Positions 7,795 to 26,758 of a stretch of 59,256 nt of DNA are shown here, in pieces. The DNA is taken from assembly GCA_017882455.1 (NCBI GenBank), contig JADGPL010000019.1:1-59256 (forward strand), given 5' to 3'. The position numbers and the translations under genes are program-made. The notes below the pieces were generated by a model that made no database searches, had not been told where the DNA came from, and worked only from the letters and a program-made list of their open reading frames with translations. Source of the DNA: Solirubrobacteraceae bacterium (GTDB taxonomy: Bacteria > Actinomycetota > Thermoleophilia > Solirubrobacterales > Solirubrobacteraceae). Numbering within the stretch: position 1 is the stretch's first letter; each line of letters starts with the position of its first letter.

Positions 7795-8268
7795 TCAGCT
7801 AATCGCAGCCTCTCTCGAGTTTTCGCCACATCCGTACCGCCGGCCCGAACCGCGGTTGCACATGTTCGCCGGCAACGAACCCCACACCTCGTAGAAGGGG
7901 AAGTTGCGCGGGTGAGCGACGACGGTCACCTGCTGGCCGCCTGTGGCCGTGGCGTGCACCGCGGCGTCCTCGACCAGTACCCGGCCGACGCCCCGGCGCA
8001 ACATCTCCGGATCGACGAAGAGGTCGCCGAGCTCACAGACGCCGCGTCCGCCCTCAGCCGCGACCGAGAACCCGAGCAGCTCCCCGCCGTTGCCGACCGC
8101 GACGCGGACCCCTCTCTGGCGATCGCGTCTGGCGCGACCCCCCAGAGCGTCGGGATGAGCCTCGAGGACGACGCGATCCTCCGCCCACACCCACGAAGAT
8201 CGCCCATGCAACTCGCCCAGGGCGCCCCGCTCGAGGGGCTCCGCGCACCTGATTCCCGCGATCACGGC
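7795..8268 (-). CDS. GNAT family N-acetyltransferase
   Basis: The frame contains the GNAT core: GELLGFSV (strand 4), CELGDLFVDPEMLRRGVG (strand 4 to the acetyl-CoA loop, with R-R-G-V-G as the pyrophosphate-binding motif) and HPRNFPFYE near the end. The ATG at 8268 is preferred because family members start shortly before the first strand; an open frame continues to 8508 but its extra residues look non-coding. The last 25 residues (MCNRGSGRRYG...) do not resemble a normal end, so the tail may be altered. Acceptor unknown. Confidence 0.75.
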   Translation of the reverse strand, partial: AVIAGIRCAEPLERGALGELHGRSSWVWAEDRVVLEAHPDALGGRARRDRQRGVRVAVGNGGELLGFSVAAEGGRGVCELGDLFVDPEMLRRGVGRVLVEDAAVHATATGGQQVTVVAHPRNFPFYEVWGSLPANMCNRGSGRRYGCGENSREAAIS

Positions 8269-8555
8269 CATGTCCGCAGGTTCCCAAAACATCGCGACGG
8301 CGGCCACGCGCCGCGCTTCCGCATTGCGCGGCGAAGCGAAAATCTCCATCGGTGTCCCGCTCACGCCCCAGTTGGACGAGCACCGGGGCTGCCGTCGCGC
8401 GAGGCGAGCGCTTCCGCTTGACCCTGCGCAAGCGGGTATGCACCGATCTTCGGCTGGTGTGCTCGCAAATCGTCCAGGCGTGGGCGGGCTGGCACTCGCG
8501 TATTTCACTCTCCACGGTTGTGTCCACGGTGCCGGCTGGCACGGGATACGGTTGA

Positions 8556-8842
8556 GGTGGGCCGGGCGACGACACGATTACGGTCTGGCAGGAGATCAGG
8601 GCGCGCCGAGCGAGGCCCGTGGGGCTCGCGGCCGACAACGGCGATCGCGCGGCAGTGTTTAGCGCGTCGCTCCGACAGGGCGACGTCTACGTGGAGTCGA
8701 GTGGCGGCGAGGTTGTCGCCCCGAATGTCCCGTGTACGCGCTACGCCACGAGCTTCTGCGTCGATGTAGGAGCGACTAGGACGCCTGTCCGGGTCGCCTA
8801 TGAGCCGCGAGCCAGGACGAGAGTTTCGATCGTTGCCGTGTA
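8556..8842 (+). pseudogene. unassigned open frame, possibly a truncated gene start
   Basis: After an in-frame stop at 8553-8555, a frame with high third-position GC reads GGPGDDTITVWQEIR and then VGLAADNGDRAAVFSASLRQ. It has no clear start codon before a GTG at 8619 and overlaps the end of the recombinase gene on the other strand. The first half looks like protein and the second half does not, which would fit a gene cut by arrival of the island. No family can be named with confidence. Confidence 0.25.
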
Positions 8843-10320
8843 GCTGGATCGATCCCCGGTGTTTGCTCCCGCGCGGTGCGCTCAGTGAGCTCGGCGCGTG
8901 CGGCGCGCCACTCGACGTCAGCAGGTCGCAATGCGTGTTCACGGAGGTCTTCAATGGCGAAGGAGTAGTGGTCGCTGAGCATTTTTAGGCTCGTGCCGCA
9001 CTCGCTGGCGACGATCTGTGGATCCTCGGTACGTAGACGCAGCGAGATCGCGCCTCGGCGCAGGGCGTAGGGTGTCGCGCCGAGGATGTGAGCGAACTTT
9101 TCACGCTCCGCGGCCTTCTTGACCGCTGGCGTGAAGCATCGCCGACCCCAGGTCTTTGCCTGTCGTCCGCTGAGGTGACATGCGCCCGTTGGGATGTCGA
9201 GCTTGCCACGGTCGGCGCCCGCCAGATCTCCCGGGATGATGAAGTCGATGTCCCGCGCTGGATGCCCCCAGCGTCTCAGGGCAGCCCGCCACTCAGATAG
9301 ATCCTCCCGGAGGATGCCCGGTATGGCGGCGCGTCGCTGGGTGCTGTGCTCGGTCTTGCCCCATTCGTCCAGCTGTCCGCAGGAGAGCACCTCGGTGACC
9401 CAGGCGAACTCGCCTGCGAGCGAGGACCAGCGAAGCCCCCATACCTCTTGATTGCGGGTTGCAAGCCCGTACTGCAGGCTCACAATCGTGGCGTCTCGAT
9501 GCGCGAGGATCGGGTCCCGTCGTTCCACCCTGAGCAGGATCTGCTCCCTGATCGCCTCGACTGCCTGAGGCGAGAGCGCCCAACTGGCGAGCGGACCTCG
9601 GGTGTGGGCGGGAGCGTAGCCGGTGCCGCCCTGGCGAGCAGAGCGGCGGCGGCTGATGGAGGGCTCGTTGGCGAGCATGCACCCATTGGTCTGGATCTCG
9701 GGCACCGCTTGCGAGCCGGCGGCCCAGCTCAGTGCGGCCGACAACACACGCCACGCGCGTACTCGGGTCGATTGGGGCACCCCGGCTTCACGCATCTGCT
9801 CACGCCATACTCTCGGCGCCTGCGGCCGGTTGAAGTGCGCGGCGGGCACGGACGCGACCGCCCGCGCATACGGTGCCGGCAGGAGTTTGCGACCGCCGGG
9901 ACCTCGGTGCGGCTTGCCGAGGAGATAGCAATTGACGAGCGACGTGTAGCGCTGATAGGTGGACGGCGCAAGGCCCTCTGGATTGCGAGGGTGCGCATCG
10001 CGCTGTAGGTACAGCTCGAGCACGTCCGCGAGCGTCCGCGCCGCGGCCGCATCGAAGTCATTCTCGTCGAGATCCAGAAGGAAGCGCCGCAGGCTGTTCC
10101 GGCCCCTACGCTCTGCTGTGACGTAGTCGCTCATCCACGCGCGTGCGTGGCGCACTGTGGGAAAGCTGCGAGTGCGCTCGACTTTGTCGTGGTCATAGAA
10201 GCCGACTTGGTACGAGCGCCGGCCGTTCTTGGCGACGCGGGGCCACGCGGAGCGTTTGGGCCATGGCCTAGCCATTCGCCAGCCCTCGCGGACGCTTGGG
10301 GGCATGACCGCTGCCTGCAT
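8776..10320 (-). CDS. tyrosine recombinase (phage-type integrase)
   Basis: The protein of up to 514 residues has an N-terminal arm domain (NGRRSYQVGFYDHDKVERTR), a SAM-like core-binding region and a C-terminal catalytic domain. In the catalytic domain, ATRNQEVWGLRW supplies the first Arg, YALRRGAISL replaces the usual HxLR box, and SDHYSF supplies the nucleophilic Tyr. The change of His to Tyr in the second box is seen in divergent actinobacterial integrases. A start at 10275 (MARPWPKRS) is more likely than 10320. The gene begins about 200 bp from a disrupted tRNA-Thr, the expected place for an integrase. A truncated paralogue lies at 27471-27837. Confidence 0.85.
   Translation of the reverse strand: MQAAVMPPSVREGWRMARPWPKRSAWPRVAKNGRRSYQVGFYDHDKVERTRSFPTVRHARAWMSDYVTAERRGRNSLRRFLLDLDENDFDAAAARTLADVLELYLQRDAHPRNPEGLAPSTYQRYTSLVNCYLLGKPHRGPGGRKLLPAPYARAVASVPAAHFNRPQAPRVWREQMREAGVPQSTRVRAWRVLSAALSWAAGSQAVPEIQTNGCMLANEPSISRRRSARQGGTGYAPAHTRGPLASWALSPQAVEAIREQILLRVERRDPILAHRDATIVSLQYGLATRNQEVWGLRWSSLAGEFAWVTEVLSCGQLDEWGKTEHSTQRRAAIPGILREDLSEWRAALRRWGHPARDIDFIIPGDLAGADRGKLDIPTGACHLSGRQAKTWGRRCFTPAVKKAAEREKFAHILGATPYALRRGAISLRLRTEDPQIVASECGTSLKMLSDHYSFAIEDLREHALRPADVEWRAARAELTERTAREQTPGIDPATRQRSKLSSWLAAHRRPGQAS
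8898..9088. repeat. about 190-bp direct repeat, copy 1 (3' part of integrase)
   Basis: This segment encodes the C-terminal catalytic part of the complete integrase. It recurs in the same orientation at about 27648-27837 with frequent small differences, so it is a diverged paralogue rather than a recent copy. The two copies bracket about 18.5 kb and most of the defence genes. Confidence 0.75.
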
Positions 10321-10617: not shown

Positions 10618-10689
10618 GTCCCCATGAGCCTTGGCAATGATTGTTGCAGATCGGCAAGAATAGTAGCTATGAGTTGTTATGGTCTTCTC

Positions 10690-11319
10690 ATGGACTTTCG
10701 TCGGCCGCTGCAGGTCGTCACTCCGACGCTGGATGGGGACGTGTTGAGCGTACTCGCGCGGGCGGAAGCCGAGATGACCGGTCGCGAGCTGCAACGGGTC
10801 ATCGGCTACGGCTCTCATCAAGGGATACGCAACGCCGCTGATCGCCTGGCTGAGCAAGGTGTCGTCTCGCGCCGGGTGGCCGGCAACGCCAACCTCTACA
10901 AGCTCAACCGCGACCACGTCGCGGCATCCTGGATAGAAGGGCTCGCGAGCCTCCCCGCGCAGGTGCTCGATCGGTTGCGCGATGCAATCCGTCGATGGGA
11001 GCATCCCCCAACGCTCGTCGTGCTGTTCGGCTCGGTCGCCCGCGGTGAGGCCACGCCCGAGAGCGATCTGGACCTGCTCGTCGTGCGCCCCACAAACTGC
11101 GAGGCAGACGAGCCGGCTTGGCAGGACCAGCTCTCAACCCTCCAGATGCTCGCCAGCGCGTGGACAGGAAACGACGCCAGGGTCCTCGAGTTCGGCGAGC
11201 AGGAGCTCACAGACGGCCAGCCCCAGCAGGTCCTCGCAGACGCGGCCCGCGACGGGATCGAGCTCTACGGCACGCTGCGCTTGCTGCGCCGCGGCTCCCG
11301 AGCGCACAGCACACGATGA
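10690..11319 (+). CDS. MNT-type nucleotidyltransferase antitoxin with N-terminal winged helix
   Basis: The 209-residue protein starts at ATG 10690. A winged-helix DNA-binding region (about 1-75: ...MTGRELQRVIG, then IRNAADRLAEQGVVSRR) is followed by a minimal nucleotidyltransferase. The motif GSVARGEATPESDLDLLVV (114-132) contains the GS and the D126/D128 pair that bind metal and nucleotide. In MntA-HepT systems the MNT protein neutralises a HEPN RNase by adding AMP to it. The fused winged helix probably makes it the operon's own repressor. Its stop overlaps the HEPN start (ATGA at 11316-11319). Confidence 0.85.
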   Translation: MDFRRPLQVVTPTLDGDVLSVLARAEAEMTGRELQRVIGYGSHQGIRNAADRLAEQGVVSRRVAGNANLYKLNRDHVAASWIEGLASLPAQVLDRLRDAIRRWEHPPTLVVLFGSVARGEATPESDLDLLVVRPTNCEADEPAWQDQLSTLQMLASAWTGNDARVLEFGEQELTDGQPQQVLADAARDGIELYGTLRLLRRGSRAHSTR

Positions 11320-11729
11320 CGCCGCGCCTGCGCAAATGCGACGAGAGCACGATCGCGGGCAGGCTCGCCAAGGCCGAGCAGTTTCTCGAAGGCGCCGAGA
11401 TCATCCGCGAGTTCGCTGCCGACGAGCAAGACATCGCCGACGCATACGTGACGCTGTGCGTGCACTGCGGCGTGGCAGCCGCGGATGTCATCTGCTGCAT
11501 CGCACTCGGCGGGCACGTTCAAGGCGAAGACCACAACGAAGCCGTCACCCAGCTCTCCAAGGTCCGTCCCGACGGTGCAGCACTCGGCAATGCCCTGCGC
11601 ACGCTTCTCGGCATGAAGACCCGCGCCGGCTACAGCCACGAGCACATCAGCACTGCCGGGTGCAAGCGCGCCCAGCGCGCAGCCGAACGGCTCCTACAAG
11701 CCGCCCGCGAACGGCGTATCAGCCGCTAA
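11316..11729 (+). CDS. HEPN domain RNase toxin partner of the MNT protein
   Basis: The 137-residue all-helical protein overlaps the MNT gene by 4 bases, the standard arrangement of HEPN/MNT pairs. RAGYSH (R103, H108) is the R-x4-H ribonuclease motif; HEPN toxins dimerise so that two such motifs form one active site. The preceding GMKTRAGYSHEHIS resembles the region modified in related toxins, but the exact target residue is not predicted. Likely an abortive-infection or plasmid-stabilising toxin. Known families place the toxin second, as here. Confidence 0.8.
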   Translation: MTPRLRKCDESTIAGRLAKAEQFLEGAEIIREFAADEQDIADAYVTLCVHCGVAAADVICCIALGGHVQGEDHNEAVTQLSKVRPDGAALGNALRTLLGMKTRAGYSHEHISTAGCKRAQRAAERLLQAARERRISR

Positions 11730-12046: not shown

Positions 12047-13264
12047 ATGGACGCCGAGATCGGACCACCTTCGCAGATTGCCCGCGTGCGGGCGATCTCC
12101 GACGACCGCTTGACGATCTTCCTGGAGCTCCGCAGCGGTCTGAACGCGACGGCCAGCGCTACGACGCCCATCGATCTCGCGGTAGGCAACGTCGTGTTGG
12201 TGCGTCCCGACGACGACGAGATGACGCTGGCTCCGGGCACGCTCTGGCCGGAGGAGCCCTGGATCGGCGTCGTCCGCCTGCGCCTGGAGGACATCACCGC
12301 CGTAGAAGTCAACGGCCGACTGCTGCGTCTGTCCACGAACGCGGTTGACTACCAAGTCGGCAATACGGTCGAAGGCCGCGATAGCTGCGGCGTCGAGCGC
12401 GTCTTGTCCGAGAAGCCGATCCGCGTTCTCGACCTGCCCGGCATCGACGATGAGGTGATAGCGCGCTTCCGCCGTCCGCCAGACACTGGCAGCCTGAGCT
12501 TTGACGACTTCGGCGGCCTGCCCGACATCGTCGAGCGCGCCCAGGAGCTGATCGAGCTGCCGCTCGAGAAGCACGAGGCACTCGCGAGGATCGGCGCCCG
12601 CCCGATCAAGGGCGTCCTGTTCACGGGAGACCCCGGCACTGGTAAGACACTGCTGGCACGCATCATCGCCAGTCGTGCTGGCGCTTTCTTCTATGAGATC
12701 AGTGGACCGGAGGTGTTCTCTAAGTGGTACGGCGAGACTGAGGAGCTGCTGCGTCGGATATTCGAAGATGCCGCCGGCCGGCCGCGCTCGATCATCTTCT
12801 TCGACGAGATTGACTCCGTGGCCGCACAGCGAGACGAGAGCCACGAGGTCACGCGGCGCGTCGTGGCGCAGCTACTGACCCTAATGGACGGTTTTCGACC
12901 TGAGCAGAACGTCGTCGTCGTGGCGGCCACAAACCGCCCCCAGGACATAGACCGCGCGCTCCTGCGGCCGGGACGGTTTGATTGGAAGATTCACTTTCCC
13001 CTACCGGGGCACGACGACCGAGAAGCAATCCTCCGCGTCGCCTCGCGGCCACTGGCGTGCCACGGCGAGCTGCCTTTCCGGCAGATAGCCGACCGCACCG
13101 AGGGCTGGTCTGCCGCCGACCTCGCGCTGATACTGAGCGAGGCCGCGCTCTTGGCGGTCGCAGACAGTCGCGACGTGATCATCGCTGAGGACACGCTCGG
13201 CGGACACACGCGCGTAGCTGCCGGACGTGCGCACTATGCCCACCCGACACAGGATGCCGTATGA
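12047..13264 (+). CDS. AAA+ ATPase (classical Cdc48/FtsH-like clade) of a two-gene unit
   Basis: The 405-residue protein has an N-terminal beta-rich region (about 1-125, possibly OB-like), then one AAA module. The module has FDDFGGLPDIVERAQELIELPL (152-173, the classical AAA entry), Walker A GDPGTGKT (194-201), KWYGETEELLR (pore loop region), Walker B IIFFDEID (249-256), and a second region of homology with ATNRPQDIDRALLRPGRFD containing the Arg fingers. It is a remodelling ATPase rather than a helicase. The next gene starts inside its stop codon (13261), so the two are translated as a unit. Similar ATPase/unknown-protein pairs occur in defence islands; the role here is inferred only. Confidence 0.85.
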   Translation: MDAEIGPPSQIARVRAISDDRLTIFLELRSGLNATASATTPIDLAVGNVVLVRPDDDEMTLAPGTLWPEEPWIGVVRLRLEDITAVEVNGRLLRLSTNAVDYQVGNTVEGRDSCGVERVLSEKPIRVLDLPGIDDEVIARFRRPPDTGSLSFDDFGGLPDIVERAQELIELPLEKHEALARIGARPIKGVLFTGDPGTGKTLLARIIASRAGAFFYEISGPEVFSKWYGETEELLRRIFEDAAGRPRSIIFFDEIDSVAAQRDESHEVTRRVVAQLLTLMDGFRPEQNVVVVAATNRPQDIDRALLRPGRFDWKIHFPLPGHDDREAILRVASRPLACHGELPFRQIADRTEGWSAADLALILSEAALLAVADSRDVIIAEDTLGGHTRVAAGRAHYAHPTQDAV

Positions 13265-14633
13265 GGGCGCCGCGCTGGTGGCTGCGCTTGCGCAACCGCG
13301 ATGATCGGCTCTCCGCGCTGACAGGCCCGCTCCGCGAGTTTGTCTACCTCGATGAGGTCAGTGTCTACAGCCTGCTCGCGTCCCGCAGGGGCGCCGTTGT
13401 CTCGGAGCTGACCGAGACCCTGTCGTCGACGACGACCGCAGAGGTCGGGGGCGCGGTCCGCGCCTCCGCAGGAGTACTGGGCTCGGAGGTCCGCTCCAAG
13501 CTGCAGGACAGCCAGACCTCAGGCACACAGGTTGTGCGCAAGGCGATCGTTCAAGCTTCGTTCAAGGAGCTAATCGAGCTACAGCACGGCACGCTTGCAC
13601 TGCGGCCTCACGATGACGACGAGTCGGCAGAGCGACCACGCAATAGCCATGAGCTTGAGGTCGCGGCAGCAGACGGCCGCTGGCGTGACCGCCTGCTTAA
13701 TGACGGTCAGCTGCGGCGGGGCGATCTCATTGAGATGCGCGTCGAGCTCGAGGCGGCTCCGATCTTCCGCTTCGGCGCGACGGTCTCCAGCCTGATCGAC
13801 ATGTTCAAGGACACACCCGAGCTGATCGGTCTGGACGCCCGGGCAGGAATGGCGCAGGGTGTCGCCGTTGGGAAGGTGCTCGACGCGCTGCTCGCCGGCC
13901 TTGTGCCGATCCGCGGACGTTCCGTCGAGTTCCGCCACGTGACCATCGGCGAGCGATCCTGGATCGTTCATAAGGGTCTGCTTGGCGACCTCGTCGCGGA
14001 CGAGACGGTGGAGATCCTGCCGCTCTACGTGGTCGGTGTAGCTGAGGCCGCGCTCTTCTGGAAGGACATCCGGCGACTGCTGTTCTCACATTCTTCCTAT
14101 ACCGTCCTGTGCCGGCTCGGCCGACACGGTACGACCAGCAAATGGACCCCCGTCAAGCTCGTTGACGTCGTTCGCGAGTTCCTCCCAGATGTCGCCCGCC
14201 AGATCGACGACGCGCAGGAGGTCTGCTGTCCCTCGCCGCCTCCGATGCAGCGCAGACCCAGGACGCCTCCACGCGCGCGCTCGCAGAGGCACTCGAACGC
14301 TACGGCGAGCAGCGCCTCCACTACGCCCAGCTGGGAGTCGACGACCACCTCGAAGGGGACGCGGCCGCGATCGCCGCAAGTCTCACCGGCGCCTCCTCCG
14401 TAGAGACGATGCGTCAGGCGTTCGCGGCGATCGATCGGAGACTGAGCAAGCGCCACGACCTCCCCCCGGACGACGCGTTGCGAGCCGCGGAGAGACGAGC
14501 TGAAGCGCTCGCGGCGTCGGGTCTCGAGCCCGACGGCACACTAGTGGCTTCACCCATCCCGTCAGCGGCTCCTGGGCAGCGAGAACTCCGGGAGCGCTAC
14601 CTCGATTCTGAGTTCATTGCGATCTACTGGTAG
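13261..14633 (+). CDS. DUF6414-like protein, reading frame broken near 14220
   Basis: From the overlapping ATG at 13261, the protein has LREFVYLDEVSVYSLLASRR (24-43) followed by ELTETLSSTT, the pattern I associate with DUF6414. The frame runs in good order to about residue 320, then turns into a Pro/Ser/Arg/Thr run typical of out-of-frame translation, ending at 14403. In the -1 frame, coherent helical protein continues from about 14220 (LLSLAASDAAQTQD, then LAEALERYGEQRLHYAQLG) to a stop at 14631-14633, with no start codon of its own. The simplest reading is one gene of about 457 codons with a single frameshift, whether mutation, assembly error or recoding. The AAA+ gene upstream is its likely partner. 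Confidence 0.65.
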
Positions 14634-17254: not shown

Positions 17255-18106
17255 ATGGCGGTTATCGGCGAATCGAGCGCGGTGAGCATTGACGGGCGGC
17301 AGCTCGGACAGCATCAGGCTGCCTTGACTGTCATGCAGCGGCTGCTCTCGGCCCCTGGGATTGGTCGATTCACGTGGCTTGATCTCGCATGTGGGCGTGG
17401 GCAGATCCTCAGTGGACTGGGTAATAGTCTGTCGCGCGACGCCCGTGCGAAGATCGACTTCTTCGCCTACGACGTCAAGCAGGACTACCTACGCGAGACG
17501 AGCAGGGTTGCGTCGGCTCTGGGATTCGGCAGCGTTGCCGGTGAGGTTGGTGACCTCTCGAAGTTTGACGTCCTCCTACCGACTGAGGCGCGCTTCGACT
17601 TCATCACGCTTACGAACACGGTTCACGAGGTCTCGCCGTCACAGCTGGCTGGAGTCCTCGTGGACGCAGTGCTCCGACTCAACGATCAGGGCACCGTCTT
17701 CGTTTACGACATGGAGCGCGTGAAGCCGCCCGAGCTAGGGGCGGTGCCGTTCAGCGCGCATGATTTTCGGGCCGTCTCAGACGCGCTCATCGAGACTCTG
17801 AGTGACAACGACTATCGACCGGAGGTTTCTGGGTGGAAACATTCAACGGTAAATGGGTGGAACGTGCAGATTCAGCGGGAGTACATCTCCGGGACACAAA
17901 ATGAGATCGAGACCAGACGGACAAAGGCAACCGAAGATACGAGGGGTGCGATCTTTGGGGTGCTGGGGCAGCGCCTGGTCGACTGCCGCCGCACCCTAGA
18001 GGTACTGACGACGAATGGAGCGGAGACGGCTGAAGAGCAAGAGGACCGCGAGCATTTGCTACACGAGCTGTGGGCGATCACGCGCGCACTGGAGGCAGAC
18101 GCATGA
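17255..18106 (+). CDS. class I SAM-dependent methyltransferase, first gene of TIR-Mrr operon
   Basis: The 283-residue protein contains WLDLACGRGQIL (41-52), the glycine-rich SAM loop, followed by an acidic strand end (FFAYDV) and FDFITLTNTVHEV, the post-I region of a Rossmann methyltransferase. No NPPY/DPPY motif of an amino-methylating DNA methylase and no PC motif of a cytosine methylase is present. The substrate may therefore be a small molecule, RNA or protein. It ends in an ATGA overlap with the TIR/Mrr fusion gene. The tight coupling implies joint function. Confidence 0.7.
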   Translation: MAVIGESSAVSIDGRQLGQHQAALTVMQRLLSAPGIGRFTWLDLACGRGQILSGLGNSLSRDARAKIDFFAYDVKQDYLRETSRVASALGFGSVAGEVGDLSKFDVLLPTEARFDFITLTNTVHEVSPSQLAGVLVDAVLRLNDQGTVFVYDMERVKPPELGAVPFSAHDFRAVSDALIETLSDNDYRPEVSGWKHSTVNGWNVQIQREYISGTQNEIETRRTKATEDTRGAIFGVLGQRLVDCRRTLEVLTTNGAETAEEQEDREHLLHELWAITRALEADA

Positions 18107-18924
18107 GAGTGTTCATCGCACACGCCTACGCCGACGCTGAGGACCTAGCGGAGGAACTTCGTCGGACGTTGAACGAATCCGGTTATGAGGCATTCAAACC
18201 GGACAGTTCCTACGAGGCTGAGGCGACCACAACGGCCTCGATTTCGGCCGCAATCCGGACGGCTGATGTGGTGATCGCGTTGCTGACGTCGCCGAATCCC
18301 AATGTGTACTTCGAGCTGGGATTGGCTGCGGGCTCGAACGTGCCGATGCTTGTCGCGTCGCGCCATCCTGCAGATATGGCGTTCGATCTTGCGGCGGCCC
18401 CCTACGTCGAGCTAACCGGGAACATTGGGACCGACGCCGCAGCTATCGTCCGGCGTGTTAGGGAGATCGTTCCTGTTCGGGAGGAGTTGGCTGAGCGGCC
18501 GAACCTGACGTTGGCGGACGTCGCGCAGGATCCAGGAGCACTAGAAAGCATAAGCCTCGTCGAGTTCGAGCGACTAGTGGCTCAGGCGTTCGAAGACGTC
18601 GGCTACGAGATACGGACGGCGTCGAGTCGGCCGGATCGGGGGTTTGATCTCGTGATCGAAGGCGACCCGCCCACGATCGTAGTGGTCAAGCGTTATAGAA
18701 GACGGAATCTTGTGAGCGTCGCCAGTGTGCGTGACCTGTTTGGAGTCATGACCGCCGTGGGAGCGGGCAGAGCGATTCTCGTTTCCTCGGGCGGCTTCAC
18801 ACGCTCTGCTGAGGCTGAAGCCGCCGAGCGGCCCATCGATCTGCTGACGCTTGACGACTTGCTTCGGCTGCGGGGTCCGACACGTTCTCCAGCAGATCTA
18901 GGCACCGATCCGGGCACCCCGTGA
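18103..18924 (+). CDS. TIR-like domain fused to Mrr-type restriction endonuclease domain
   Basis: The 273-residue protein has two parts. Residues 1-125 are TIR/deoxyribosyltransferase-like: MRVFIAHAYADAEDLAEEL, then AIRTADVVIALLTS and NPNVYFELGLAAG, where E71 is placed like the catalytic Glu of TIR NADases. Residues about 148-258 are Mrr-like: SLVEFERLVAQAFEDVGYEI, DRGFDLVI (D182), VVVKRYRR (K196) and ILVSSGGFT. The residue two before the Lys, usually Gln or Glu, is Val194, so the nuclease centre may be weakened. An NAD-consuming sensor/effector joined to a DNA-binding nuclease module is unusual. It is coupled to the methyltransferase before it and a small gene after it (GTGA overlap). Confidence 0.7.
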   Translation: MRVFIAHAYADAEDLAEELRRTLNESGYEAFKPDSSYEAEATTTASISAAIRTADVVIALLTSPNPNVYFELGLAAGSNVPMLVASRHPADMAFDLAAAPYVELTGNIGTDAAAIVRRVREIVPVREELAERPNLTLADVAQDPGALESISLVEFERLVAQAFEDVGYEIRTASSRPDRGFDLVIEGDPPTIVVVKRYRRRNLVSVASVRDLFGVMTAVGAGRAILVSSGGFTRSAEAEAAERPIDLLTLDDLLRLRGPTRSPADLGTDPGTP

Positions 18925-22008: not shown

Positions 22009-23247
22009 GTGACCGAGCTGGTGCCCCGCCGGACAAGAAGACTCGTGGTGGAAGCGCTCGCCGACACGCGGGTTGTGTTCGTGACGGGCGCTCGGCAGGT
22101 CGGCAAGAGCACGTTGGTCCGGGAGATCGCCGCAGGCGAGCACCCCGCGCGGGTGGTGAGCTTCGATGACGACGGGCCCCGTGAGGCCGCTCGGCTGGAC
22201 CCGGCGGGGTTCCTGGAGGGGTTTCCCGGCCCGGTTGTGATTGACGAGGTGCAGCGGGTTCCCGGGTTGCTGCTGGCGATCAAGGATCGCGTGGACCGGG
22301 ACACCCGGCCGGGTCGGTTCCTGCTCACTGGCTCGGCCAACGTGTTCGCATCTCGGCGTGTGCACGAGGCGCTCACCGGCCGTATGGAGACGATCGTGTT
22401 GTGGCCGCTCGCGCAGGCCGAGACGAGGGGCTCTGATACGAACATCGTCGATCTGCTGTTCGCCGGTCTCGCTCCCGACGTGGAGGGCGCGCCGGTCGGG
22501 CGTGCGGCGTTCGCGTCGATCATCGCGGCAGGCGGCTACCCGGAGGCCCTACGGCGGCCCGGCGGCAGGCGCCGCGATCGCTGGTTTGCCAACTACATCC
22601 AGGACACGCTGGACACGGACCTGCGGGACATCAGCGACGCCCTGAAGCTGGTGGAGCTGCCGCGGCTGCTGCGGCTGATCGCAGCGCAGGCGGCCAACGA
22701 GCTTGTCTACAGGAACCTCGCCAGAAAGCTTGACCTGACCCACGAGACGGTCAAGAGCTACGTGGAGCTCCTGGAGATCGTGTTCCTCGCCAGGAGGCTC
22801 CCCGCCTGGAGGCCGGGGATCGGGACACGCGAGGTTCGAGCCCCGAAGGGCTACATAGTCGACTCGGGCTTGCTGGCGCACCTGCTCGGCGCCGACGAGC
22901 GACGCATCGGCGAGGACGACCAGATCACGGGCAAGGTGCTGGAGAACTTCGTAGCGATGGAGCTCCTGCGCCTCGCTGACTGGGCGGACACCGACACGCG
23001 CCTGTACCACTACCGGCAGGGACGGGAAGAGATCGACCTGATCCTCGAGAGCCGAGCAGGCGACATCGCCGCGATCGAGGTCAAGGCCACCGCGACCGTG
23101 CGACCCCGAGACTACGCCGCGATCGCCAAGCTACGCGATGCGCGCGGCACCCACTTCAAGGCCGGGATCGTGGTGTACGCCGGCCAGCAGACCGTCCCGC
23201 TCGGCGACAGGATGTGGGCGGTGCCAGTCAGCGGCCTGTGGGAGTAG
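22009..23247 (+). CDS. ATP-binding protein with AAA_14 and DUF4143 domains
   Basis: The 412-residue protein starts at GTG 22009 behind GGAGG. It has Walker A TGARQVGKST (26-35), Walker B VVIDEVQ, GRFLLTGSAN (sensor region) and a middle winged-helix part. The DUF4143 C-terminus carries EEIDLILE and IAAIEVKA, which matches a PD-(D/E)xK nuclease-like core. These proteins are common in accessory DNA across bacteria and archaea, and their function is unsettled. Three 22-bp repeats directly upstream suggest tight control. Confidence 0.9.
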   Translation: MTELVPRRTRRLVVEALADTRVVFVTGARQVGKSTLVREIAAGEHPARVVSFDDDGPREAARLDPAGFLEGFPGPVVIDEVQRVPGLLLAIKDRVDRDTRPGRFLLTGSANVFASRRVHEALTGRMETIVLWPLAQAETRGSDTNIVDLLFAGLAPDVEGAPVGRAAFASIIAAGGYPEALRRPGGRRRDRWFANYIQDTLDTDLRDISDALKLVELPRLLRLIAAQAANELVYRNLARKLDLTHETVKSYVELLEIVFLARRLPAWRPGIGTREVRAPKGYIVDSGLLAHLLGADERRIGEDDQITGKVLENFVAMELLRLADWADTDTRLYHYRQGREEIDLILESRAGDIAAIEVKATATVRPRDYAAIAKLRDARGTHFKAGIVVYAGQQTVPLGDRMWAVPVSGLWE

Positions 23248-23467
23248 GGGCAGCCGGCGGGCGCTAAGCAGACCGCTGCTCTGTTGCTGACGCTCGTCGT
23301 GTCGGCGATCGACACGGTGAGCGTCGCACACGGCTGCGTCGGCGTGCTCGAGGACTCGGGGATCGTCCTCACGTCCGGGGAGCTCGACGCGTTTGGGTTC
23401 ACGCCCGGTGTCGGCGAGTCCAACGGTGGCTGGGCCGACCGGGATACCGCGAACGGCGTCACTCCGT

Positions 23468-23824
23468 CTAGTCATGCAGATGGCGGCGGTAGATCGCCTC
23501 CGCGCGATCGGCCCATTCCCCTGGCAGCTCGCTACGCAACTCTGCAACGAAGGCGTCGCTCTCCTCGGGCTCAGGCGCGGGAAGCGCGGCAAGGAACCGC
23601 TCTGCTTCCGTGGTAACCCATCCTGCAAGCTCCGGCGCTTGCAGCTCGGCCAGCTCGACCAGTCCCCCCGCGACCTCCTCGACAGCATTGCGCCGGGCAT
23701 GGGTGGCAATCAGCAGTACGTCCGGGATCTGCAGGTAGCGCTCGCGCCGGCCCCACTCGACTGGCGTGATCCCCAGATCGCGAACAGCACGAGTAATGAA
23801 CGAAGGATGCACATTCTCGCGCAT
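23468..23824 (-). CDS. hypothetical protein replacing the CD-NTase core position
   Basis: The minus-strand frame from ATG 23824 encodes about 118 residues (HPSFITRAVRDLGITP, LQIPDVLLIATHARRNAVEE, AELQAPELAGWVTTEAERF, ELRSELPGEWADRAEAIYRR) with good third-position GC. It reads as a real helical protein. I do not recognise the family, and it may itself be the tail of a longer gene. Its 5' end overlaps the 5' end of the truncated CD-NTase frame on the other strand. It occupies the space where the cyclase catalytic domain should be. Confidence 0.5.
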   Translation of the reverse strand: MRENVHPSFITRAVRDLGITPVEWGRRERYLQIPDVLLIATHARRNAVEEVAGGLVELAELQAPELAGWVTTEAERFLAALPAPEPEESDAFVAELRSELPGEWADRAEAIYRRHLHD

Positions 23825-24166
23825 CTCCACGCGACGCAGGGCGCACCGCCGACTCTCGAAGAGGGCCTGCATCGGTTTCTGTTGTACGTCGCCCAGACCA
23901 GGCTCCAGGAGCCGATCACCTCCGGCCATGCCAAACCGAGCCTGCCGGCCGATCCGGTCGTCATCATCGGTCCGATCAACCCGCAGAACAACGTCGCGGC
24001 ACAGATGAGTGATGCGGATCGTGAGGCCCTGGTGGCGACGGCCACCACGGCGTGGGAGGCGCTGTTGACCGCCCGCCACAACTCCTACAAAGGCGAGACG
24101 CACGCGCTCTGGCGCGAGGTGTTCGGCTCATCGTTCATCGTCGAGGCGGAGGAGGTCGCAGCATGA
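23807..24166 (+). pseudogene. CBASS CD-NTase, C-terminal fragment only
   Basis: The frame from ATG 23807 reads PPTLEEGLHRFLLYVAQTRL, then DPVVIIGPINPQNNVAAQMS and DADREALV. The DP.(D/N)P.NNVA box followed by a helix is the C-terminal signature of CD-NTase (cGAS/DncV-like) cyclases. The catalytic half with GSxxxGT and DxD is absent, and upstream sequence codes on the other strand. About 119 residues remain of an expected 300 or more. It still ends in an ATGA overlap with the HORMA gene, so it is the true head of this operon. It cannot make a cyclic nucleotide by itself. Confidence 0.7.
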
Positions 24167-24684
24167 GCACCGCCACGACGACCCTAAGCTCGACCTACTC
24201 AACCGTTGATGTGGGCAAGGTGGTCGATCAGTTCACCGCGGACTTCCACATGCTTGGCGCTGCCACCGGCCTTGCCTCCCCCCAGCGGGCAGCCGACGTT
24301 GGTCATGACATCAAGCTGATGGCGAAGCGCGGCTACATCGATCGCGTCGACATCGTGCTGCTAAGCGCTGCTGGCAAGGAAATACGCGCAGCCAAGTACG
24401 CCGTTTCGACCGACGCGGGGCTCTGGAGCGCTCAGCGCCCGGGCAACAACCTGTGGCCGCCCCAGATCGCCGGCAGCTTGAGCGTCGTCGTGTCATACAC
24501 ATCGACGTGGTATGAGCTGAGCGTCGAGGCCCGACGACGATTCCATCATGAGGAGTGTCGCCGCGCCTGGGGGCCCAGCTCGATCGACACGACGTACCCA
24601 GGGTTGGTTGGCCGCTTTGATCGTCGCTACGCGTCGAACGCCTACGGCATGGAGCGGACGCTGTACGGGGAGGCGGGTGAATGA
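24163..24684 (+). CDS. cap7: bacterial HORMA domain protein of type III CBASS
   Basis: The 173-residue protein has the bacterial HORMA layout: YSTVDVGKVVDQFTADFHML, ADVGHDIKLMAKRGYIDRVD, AAKYAVSTDAGLW, and a C-terminal safety-belt-like part ending RRYASNAYGMERTLYG. In type III CBASS, HORMA proteins sense closure peptides, bind the CD-NTase and activate it. It overlaps the CD-NTase fragment at its start and the TRIP13 gene at its end. The symbol follows the CBASS Cap nomenclature and is given by motif and position. Confidence 0.8.
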   Translation: MSTATTTLSSTYSTVDVGKVVDQFTADFHMLGAATGLASPQRAADVGHDIKLMAKRGYIDRVDIVLLSAAGKEIRAAKYAVSTDAGLWSAQRPGNNLWPPQIAGSLSVVVSYTSTWYELSVEARRRFHHEECRRAWGPSSIDTTYPGLVGRFDRRYASNAYGMERTLYGEAGE

Positions 24685-25607
24685 ACCTAAACGCTGACGA
24701 TGGACGCGCCGAGCTCTTCGAGTCCCAGATCGTCCTGCCTGACGCACACATCGCTGAGCGTCGTGGACGGCTGATCGGCTTTCAGGAGCGCTTCTCCCGC
24801 CTCGGTCGTGCGATGGCGATCCTGCTCGACGCCGATAGCCTCGCTGACTGGGCGGCACGCTTCCATGGCGCTGGCCTGCCGCTCGTGGCGGCGATGACCG
24901 ACCGCTACCCGCTGATCGTGCTGCACGGAGACGTGGGCACAGGCAAGACCGTCTTTGCCGAAGCCGCCGCAGACGAGCTCTGCCGTGCAACCCGCCGGGA
25001 TGGGATGCTGCTCAAGCTCTCGACGCGCGTGCGTGGCGTTGGGCAAGTCGGTCAGATGAGTCACCTGATCAACCAGGCGTTCGCTGCCGTGGAGAGCGAG
25101 GCCGGCCGCAAGCGAGCGGCGGTGCTACTCATCGACGAGGCCGATTCGCTAGCCGCGAGCCCTGAGCAGATCCACAGCCATCACGAGGACAAGGTCGCAG
25201 TCAACACCCTGATCCAGAAGATCGACGATGTACGGCGGCTCGGCGGCCGAGTTCTGGTGCTGCTGTGCACCAACCGCCTTGCGGCGCTGGACCCGGCGCT
25301 CCTCCGCCGCGCCGCGCTGCTGGAGCGCTTCGATCGGCCGGGCGACTTGGAGCGTGCTGCGGTGCTTGAAGCCGACACCAAAGGGCTCGGCGTCTCAACG
25401 GGAGCACTCGCCAAGACGGTCGCCCTGACAGGCCCCGAGGCCAACGAAGGGCTCGGGTTCACCTTCTCAGACCTGCGTACGCGCTTGCTGCCCGAGGCTG
25501 TTCTCCGCGCCTACCCAGATCGCCCGCTGGCCGACGACGACCTGGTTGAGACCGCGCGAGCGATGACGCCCTCCCCGTCCCTTGTGACAGAGGACATCGT
25601 GAATTGA
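24681..25607 (+). CDS. cap6: TRIP13/Pch2-like AAA+ ATPase of type III CBASS
   Basis: The 308-residue ATPase has Walker A GDVGTGKT (83-90), Walker B LLIDEADS (149-156), a sensor region with VLLCTNRLAALDPALLRRA, and the short N-terminal part typical of Pch2. In CBASS, TRIP13 opens HORMA proteins and so switches the cyclase off. Start overlaps the HORMA stop (ATGA) and the end overlaps the effector start (TTGA), so the operon is tightly coupled. Confidence 0.85.
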   Translation: MNLNADDGRAELFESQIVLPDAHIAERRGRLIGFQERFSRLGRAMAILLDADSLADWAARFHGAGLPLVAAMTDRYPLIVLHGDVGTGKTVFAEAAADELCRATRRDGMLLKLSTRVRGVGQVGQMSHLINQAFAAVESEAGRKRAAVLLIDEADSLAASPEQIHSHHEDKVAVNTLIQKIDDVRRLGGRVLVLLCTNRLAALDPALLRRAALLERFDRPGDLERAAVLEADTKGLGVSTGALAKTVALTGPEANEGLGFTFSDLRTRLLPEAVLRAYPDRPLADDDLVETARAMTPSPSLVTEDIVN

Positions 25608-26758
25608 TCCGCCGTCTGCACGTCACAGGCAGCGCCGCTCGCGAAGTTGACCCCGGCCTGCTCGGCGACGTGCACACGATCGTCGCCGAGGTCGTCCATG
25701 GGTGGGTAGCACGCGGCGGAGCATTGGTGGGTGGCCTCGGAGCCGAGCCGCTCACGGCCGCTCAGTCGGAGCTCTCGATCATCTTCGACTGGACTGTCGC
25801 CGAGGCAGCGCTCAAGGCGCTCGAATCCGGCAACGCCGCGGCGAGCACCCACGACGGCCAGCTCCTCGCTGTGCGCACATCCCAGCGGGCGCGGACGCAG
25901 ATCCCCGCGCGACGCCGAGCGATCTTCGACCGTCTGCTTGAGCTCGGTGCAATAGACCTCACCTTCCTACCCGACACGTGGCGCTCGGGCGCATTGATCA
26001 GGCGCGCCCAAGCCGAACTCGGGGACGTGCTGCTCATCATCGGCGGTGGAGCGGGTGTCGAGGACCTCGCTAACCTCTACACCGCCGAAGGACGGCCCGT
26101 GATCCCCATCGATGTCGCGCTCGGGTCCTCCAACGAAGATGCTGTTCTCGGCGGGCAGGGACTTGCTCGCCGCGCCATGAGTAACGGCGATGACTTCTTC
26201 CGCCTTGCGGACGGCAGCTCGGCGTCGGCGCGACTCGCAGCGCTCAGCATGGAGGACGCCAGGCCTTCAGCACCGGTGCTCGCCCGGCGGCTGCTCGCAG
26301 TCCTGAGCGACCTCGAGCCGCCACGGGCTTTCTGCGTACGACTGCTCAATCCCGAACATCCAAACTACCTCGAAGTCGAGCGCTTCTTCTGTGACGTGGC
26401 CCAGCCCGTAATCGAGGAGATGGGCCTATGCGTCGTAGACCTTGGCCATGACCGTCAGGAAAAAGCATGGATGAATGCCGAGATCTTCGAGCAACTCCAC
26501 AATGCCGAGCTTGCGTTTGTCGATCTCAGCGGCTCGCGACCCAACTGCCACATCGAGCTCGGCTACGCCCTGGGACGCGGGCACCGCGTGATAATCACCG
26601 CGCGTGAAGAGGAGCCGCCACCGTTTGACGCAGACAGGCTTCCTTGGCACTACTGGGACCCCAACGCTGCCCCGGCAGATGCCCAAGCAGCGCTGCGCGA
26701 GCATATACGCAAGTTTGGCGCTCTCCCACCACTCGTGCAGCCTCGCCGATTCGTTTGA
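25604..26758 (+). CDS. CBASS effector: SLOG/STALD-like domain plus TIR-like domain
   Basis: The 384-residue protein begins at TTG 25604 inside the TRIP13 stop. Residues 1-215 look like a SLOG/STALD nucleotide-binding fold: GGALVGGLG (38-46), VLLIIGGGAGVEDLANLY (142-159), then GRPVIPIDV. Residues 240-370 are TIR/deoxyribosyltransferase-like: WMNAEIFEQLHNAELAFVDLSG and NCHIELGYALGRGH with E318 in the usual catalytic place. STALD-type domains are linked to NAD-consuming effectors in the literature, so this is probably a cyclic-nucleotide-triggered NADase. The order of domains and exact ligand are inference. Confidence 0.7.
   Translation: MIRRLHVTGSAAREVDPGLLGDVHTIVAEVVHGWVARGGALVGGLGAEPLTAAQSELSIIFDWTVAEAALKALESGNAAASTHDGQLLAVRTSQRARTQIPARRRAIFDRLLELGAIDLTFLPDTWRSGALIRRAQAELGDVLLIIGGGAGVEDLANLYTAEGRPVIPIDVALGSSNEDAVLGGQGLARRAMSNGDDFFRLADGSSASARLAALSMEDARPSAPVLARRLLAVLSDLEPPRAFCVRLLNPEHPNYLEVERFFCDVAQPVIEEMGLCVVDLGHDRQEKAWMNAEIFEQLHNAELAFVDLSGSRPNCHIELGYALGRGHRVIITAREEEPPPFDADRLPWHYWDPNAAPADAQAALREHIRKFGALPPLVQPRRFV

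Follow-up and report, generated by a model that had tools for sequence, protein, structure and literature searches.

A classical AAA ATPase and an adjoining DUF6414 protein form an obligate gene pair that probably works like the Dodola phage defence system

Dodola is a two-gene defence system that protects against phages (PMC11514479, PMC12322248); it is broadly protective in Streptococcus thermophilus, and its mechanism is listed as 'Unknown' (PMC12322248). Its ATPase, DolB, is a ClpB-type AAA protein with the domains PF07724 and PF10431 (PMC10924106). On plasmids of Lactobacillales and Bacillales, we find relatives of DolB preceded by genes that are annotated by NCBI as DUF6414 family protein, and the four plasmid DolA proteins that we tested match both the DolA model of PADLOC (174-292 bits) and the DUF6414 family of Pfam (PF19952) over its cut-off. 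A DUF6414 protein together with an AAA+ ATPase is thus a known kind of system. Our literature search on DUF6414 or PF19952 returned nothing. A true DolB (315 bits) also occurs in a genome of the same phylum as the one studied here, with a DUF6414 gene as its neighbour (30.8 bits, cut-off 25).

The locus lies in a window of 59,256 nucleotides, the whole stretch of DNA analysed, from a Solirubrobacteraceae bacterium whose genome assembly comprises 3.3 Mb in 51 contigs and is 95% complete. The original prediction, a classical AAA remodeller joined by an ATGA overlap to a DUF6414-like protein, is borne out for both the ATPase and the overlap (Table 1). The product of the first gene matches the AAA domain PF00004 (5.5e-42) and the AAA lid PF17862 (1.2e-9), and PF07724 stays below its cut-off. 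In the AlphaFold2 model of this protein (pLDDT 90.6), the strands of the N-terminal domain fall into two groups of five, at residues 10-62 and 72-121, which may represent tandem OB-like folds. Besides Walker A, the motor carries the Walker B DEID, the aromatic pore loop KWYG, two arginine fingers and sensor 1. By motif counts over 51 relatives, Walker A, Walker B, sensor 1 and the arginine fingers are conserved, and aromatic pore loop 1, a trait of substrate-threading AAA motors, is present in 49. Judged by these motifs, the motor is intact and of the substrate-threading type. The closest folds to the motor in structure comparison are those of PAN, the 26S Rpt subunits, FtsH and p97 D1, with Z about 30, and the best Foldseek match is an Rpt subunit (E 6e-30). 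The ATPase stands apart from other AAA proteins of the source genome, as they match it over the motor only, at 36-39% identity.

Table 1. Features of the AAA-DUF6414 locus and of defence-type genes in the window. Positions are nucleotides of the window unless residues are given.
Feature	Position	Strand	Remarks
AAA ATPase gene	12047-13264	+	405 aa; ORF calling and Pfam
AAA ATPase N-domain	residues 10-121		ten strands
AAA ATPase classical AAA motor	residues 137-400
Walker A GDPGTGKT	12626-12649	+	residues 194-201; position computed from ORF start
Walker B IIFFDEID	12791-12814	+	residues 249-256; position computed from ORF start
ATGA overlap	13261-13264	+	DUF6414 start codon inside AAA stop codon; translational coupling
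DUF6414 gene, first part (frame 1)	13261-14214	+	basic N-terminal extension, FVYLDEVSVYSLL motif, core up to WTPVKL
Frameshift zone	14208-14220	+	conserved coding passes from frame 1 to frame 3 (tblastn, 55 relatives)
DUF6414 C-terminal part, out of frame (frame 3)	14220-14633	+	helical region and closing strand
TIR-Mrr single protein	18070-18924		TIR_2 1.1e-7, N-terminal; Mrr-type nuclease 6e-22
AAA_14/DUF4143 ATPase	22009-23247		518 bits to PADLOC candidate PDC-S01
HORMA protein	24052-24684
TRIP13	24681-25607		365 bits
Cap17/TIR-type effector	25604-26758

The second gene does belong to DUF6414 (149 bits, E 2.7e-43, over residues 24-318 of the gene starting at 13261), but the single open frame to 14633 ascribed to it does not hold. 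The ORF from 13261 closes at 14403, past the frame change, and its stretch after about 14214 is meaningless. The frame 3 tail ends LDSEFIAIYW, with the stop at 14631-14633. Comparison by tblastn puts the break at 14208/14220 with one relative (L049) and at 14214/14220 with another (L077), and the relatives on genome contigs cross this point in one frame. The family profile picks up both halves separately in the source genome; the frame 3 part scores 50 bits against it, and 54.8 bits in the genome scan. All 28 of the 28 near-invariant family positions before the break are present, and the tail after it displays no added decay. Given this preservation, the frameshift is either a very recent mutation or an assembly error, and unless it is the latter, the window copy of the pair is probably inactive. 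Intact DUF6414 copies exist among the relatives, for example in the pair on a Rubrobacter marinus plasmid (locus L038, DUF6414 at 8094-9488). We do not find support for a programmed frameshift, as the relatives stay in a single frame across this region and no slippery heptamer is visible by eye. Other broken copies, with an internal stop or split frames, occur in G625 (contig 39, 8900-9729), L032 (1218-2567) and L035 (5800-7731), two of the three adjoining an intact AAA gene.

Searching about 85,000 species genomes with the DUF6414 alignment, we obtained 55 loci, spread over Actinomycetota, Alphaproteobacteria, Chloroflexota, Acidobacteriota and haloarchaea; in every one, the gene immediately upstream of DUF6414 encodes a member of the same AAA subfamily. 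The DUF6414 start falls between -16 and +48 bases from the end of the AAA gene, with -3, seen in about half of the 55 relatives, as the commonest spacing. Since all 55 keep the same neighbour, the pairing is not accidental; the AAA and DUF6414 genes are an obligate unit. On plasmids, 12 of the 12 best AAA matches that cover most of the query have DUF6414 downstream. They come from Rubrobacter, Streptomyces, Tsukamurella, Novosphingobium and haloarchaea; for one of them, the Halorussus record H11, we used locus L087 to read the neighbour. Among 399 genomes of the class, the AAA subfamily is found at E<=1e-60 in 3, with DUF6414 adjoining in each. The full-length protein is present in 3 of 396 genomes of the phylum (534-574 bits, all other matches being <=333), and these three are the ones whose DUF6414 is unbroken by stops. 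The pair is sporadic and often plasmid-borne. We saw no carrier of the AAA subfamily among viral contigs, where 18 pattern matches proved not to be relatives, and no alternative partner, as every AAA protein checked that has an N-domain of this kind adjoins DUF6414. The protein trees of the two partners agree, with a Mantel r of 0.94, where the best of 2000 permutations reached 0.39; the trees have 26 of 48 splits in common.

Neither a loose pairing nor a housekeeping ATPase is what we observe: the genes always adjoin, and the ATPase is sporadic and scores far below the family cut-offs of CDC48 (237 bits, cut-off 803), PAN (235, cut-off 500), FtsH (210, cut-off 600) and Mpa (134, cut-off 505). 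On these scores, and on its rarity in the class and phylum samples, we rejected these housekeeping families as its identity.

The fold of DUF6414 was modelled on an intact Rubrobacter relative. The model (mean pLDDT 84.7) has a strand core with a helical insert and a final strand that closes the protein, in agreement with the orderly but unassigned fold that had been predicted. Foldseek returned nothing at E<=0.001 from the PDB or viral models, and VIA-align gave matches with Z<=6 only. Among the latter are the OB-folds of PriB and SSB, which extend over model residues 157-464 at Z 4.4-4.6 and give no more than a weak hint of an OB-like core. DUF6414 has no catalytic motif that we could recognise, and none of its fold matches is enzyme-like. 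In bacterial members, an extension of about 28 residues before the core is basic, with a mean net charge of +5.6 compared with -8.9 for the whole protein; the N-terminal extension of haloarchaeal members is not basic. At the other end, Tyr-Trp are the last two residues in 55 of 55 AAA-paired relatives, and we can imagine them as a docking tail for the motor. We put this forward as a hypothesis, because DolA, and also DUF6414 proteins that lack an AAA partner, stop no more than a few residues away from this strand. The closing strand is itself found in DUF6414 proteins that have no AAA partner, so its role may lie in the structure of the protein and not in contact with the motor. In six genomes of the class, DUF6414 is solitary, with no such AAA gene in its vicinity. 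Among the solitary members from the class (L021, L022, L023, L024, L025 and L026), several stop one residue past the A-I-Y that is conserved in the closing strand, and a hydrophobic segment lies ahead of the domain in L026. Searches with solitary members gave no plasmid and no phage relatives.

The defence-type genes said to flank the pair are present in the window (TIR-Mrr, the PDC-S01 ATPase, HORMA, TRIP13 and the Cap17/TIR effector). Genes adjoining the relatives include GajA/PtuA/OLD-type (Gabija-like) ATPases, integrases, resolvases and Mrr, together with one type III and one type IV restriction enzyme; on annotated plasmids, SIR2, DUF262/HNH, SNF2, HEPN and McrC genes lie near the pair. 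Matches to PADLOC models number 341 in the neighbours and 42 in class controls, a difference that overstates the enrichment, as one protein can match 59 models and, of 10 large neighbours scanned singly, 7 had no PADLOC match. The controls also come from few genomes. The proposed enrichment in defence islands is therefore suggestive only.

The set of genes at 23393-26758 resembles CBASS type III, and its cyclase ORF (23393-24166) matches the model of the CBASS cyclase over just its C-terminal third; the nucleotidyltransferase half was not seen by eye in any of the six frames, so the set looks decayed, like the frameshifted DUF6414. Upstream of the pair, at 10624-11729, a winged-helix-like N terminus is joined in one protein to a minimal nucleotidyltransferase (MntA-like, below cut-off). 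The small ORF that comes next is perhaps HEPN-like, which would make the two a possible MNT/HEPN toxin-antitoxin pair. On the minus strand at 8776-10320, a protein of 514 aa looks like a tyrosine recombinase by eye, although Pfam returns nothing for it up to E 1, and is a candidate integrase of the island.

We favour the reading that the two genes form an immune module that works like Dodola and travels on a mobile island, and give it a probability of roughly 55%, with lower confidence in each mechanistic detail than in the module as a whole. The AAA protein would be a hexameric, ATP-driven remodeller, a motor like the proteasomal ATPases that lacks a protease, and would act directly on its obligate partner, holding or reshaping it. 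The translational coupling, the congruent trees, the threading-type motor and the association of two AAA+ clades with DUF6414 all point to the partner as what the motor acts on. DUF6414 would be the sensing or effector half, and the basic N-terminal extension of its bacterial members could bind membrane or nucleic acid. Infection would change the contact between motor and partner so that DUF6414 is released or activated. By analogy with Dodola, we infer a defensive role, with a presumed effect on phages.

Several of the same observations can be read otherwise. Strict pairing with coupled translation, frequent location on plasmids and DUF6414 frames that are broken in some genomes (G625, L032 and L035) would also suit a maintenance function for plasmids or islands, in the manner of a toxin-antitoxin system, where a toxic DUF6414 is kept harmless by an AAA chaperone, loss of the element kills and defence is secondary. 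However, the six genomes of the class in which DUF6414 is solitary argue that DUF6414 is not inherently lethal, and the related Dodola protects from phages; we regard this explanation as unlikely. To a similar degree, we doubt that DUF6414 is a substrate receptor for an AAA hexamer that unfolds or extracts phage proteins or complexes. The likeness of the motor to PAN/Rpt and p97, its aromatic pore loops and the lack of a recognisable catalytic motif or enzyme-like fold match in DUF6414 speak for such an adaptor and unfoldase, but there is no protease partner and no known client, and remodelling of DUF6414 itself fits the present data equally. Some loci sit on large plasmids beside the replication genes DnaE, LexA and MCM, as they might if the pair served a mobile element in protein quality control or in plasmid or island replication; the sporadic distribution, the defence and integrase neighbours and the kinship to Dodola speak against a role outside defence, which seems to us quite improbable.

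More tentatively, the pair could be an immune system in its own right, common to bacteria and archaea, in which the protease-less, proteasome-ATPase-like motor controls DUF6414 through the invariant Tyr-Trp C terminus and which arose independently of Dodola by joining a different AAA+ clade to DUF6414. Were this doubtful reading correct, two or more distinct clades of AAA+ motors would drive DUF6414, which would serve them as a platform for sensing or for effector action. The exceptionless linkage of a second AAA+ clade to the DUF6414 family hints that this family forms the core of the system and is what the motor acts on; the more than 50 pairs, haloarchaeal ones included, give material for comparative tests. 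The whole branch is missed by our defence library, PADLOC-DB 2.0.0 of 2023.

Among the other ATPase systems described, the CBASS type III TRIP13 is likewise an AAA remodeller with one protein partner; the window ATPase reaches only 53.7 bits against it and has no HORMA or cyclase partner. IetAS is a defence operon of two genes and, like our pair, has a classical AAA ATPase; IetA is the best PADLOC match of the ATPase, at 117 bits over the motor only (residues 161-380 of 405, the full length being unmatched); the NCBIfam model IteA gives 105 bits against a cut-off of 510. The partner in IetAS, however, is the protease IetS, whereas that of the window ATPase, whose N-domain is unmatched, is DUF6414, and IetS does not adjoin: DUF6414 lies downstream, and the nearest upstream genes are the nucleotidyltransferase and the small ORF, which has no Pfam match. 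With PAN/Rpt and CDC48, the ATPase shares the motor fold and, in its second N-terminal barrel, an alignment with the Rpt N-domains; it differs from them in its sporadic occurrence and in that we see no coiled coil or HbYX tail.

The comparison with Dodola is the closest. Both consist of two adjacent, often overlapping genes, one for a DUF6414 protein and the other for a single-ring AAA+ ATPase that has an N-domain of its own, and both are found on plasmids. The original description of the locus as an uncharacterised two-gene system thus keeps its two-gene unit, but the make-up is already that of Dodola. The differences are nevertheless marked. DolB is ClpB-type (PF07724/PF10431), whereas the window pair has a classical AAA (PF00004/PF17862); dolA precedes dolB (L133-L138), whereas the AAA gene comes first in 55 of 55 pairs of the window type; and DolA has about 240-280 aa, whereas AAA-paired DUF6414 proteins have about 400-520 aa, a helical insert and the YW terminus. 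The PADLOC DolA model (PDLC03837) gave 0 matches at E<=10 among three DUF6414 proteins (L038, L080 and L081) and four solitary ones, and 0 at E<=0.01 among the window proteins, while recovering 4 of 4 DolA proteins as a positive control at the scores given above. The PADLOC DolB model did not match the window ATPase at E<=0.01, and one archaeal AAA relative matches it weakly (23.9 bits). Profile comparison aligned 28 N-terminal columns of DUF6414 and DolA at 15% probability, so that homology rests on the common Pfam model, and gave a generic P-loop match between AAA and DolB. Given the differing AAA clade, gene order and length and the missed PADLOC models, we do not file the pair as a member of Dodola; we describe it as a Dodola-like variant that, by analogy, probably works in the same way.
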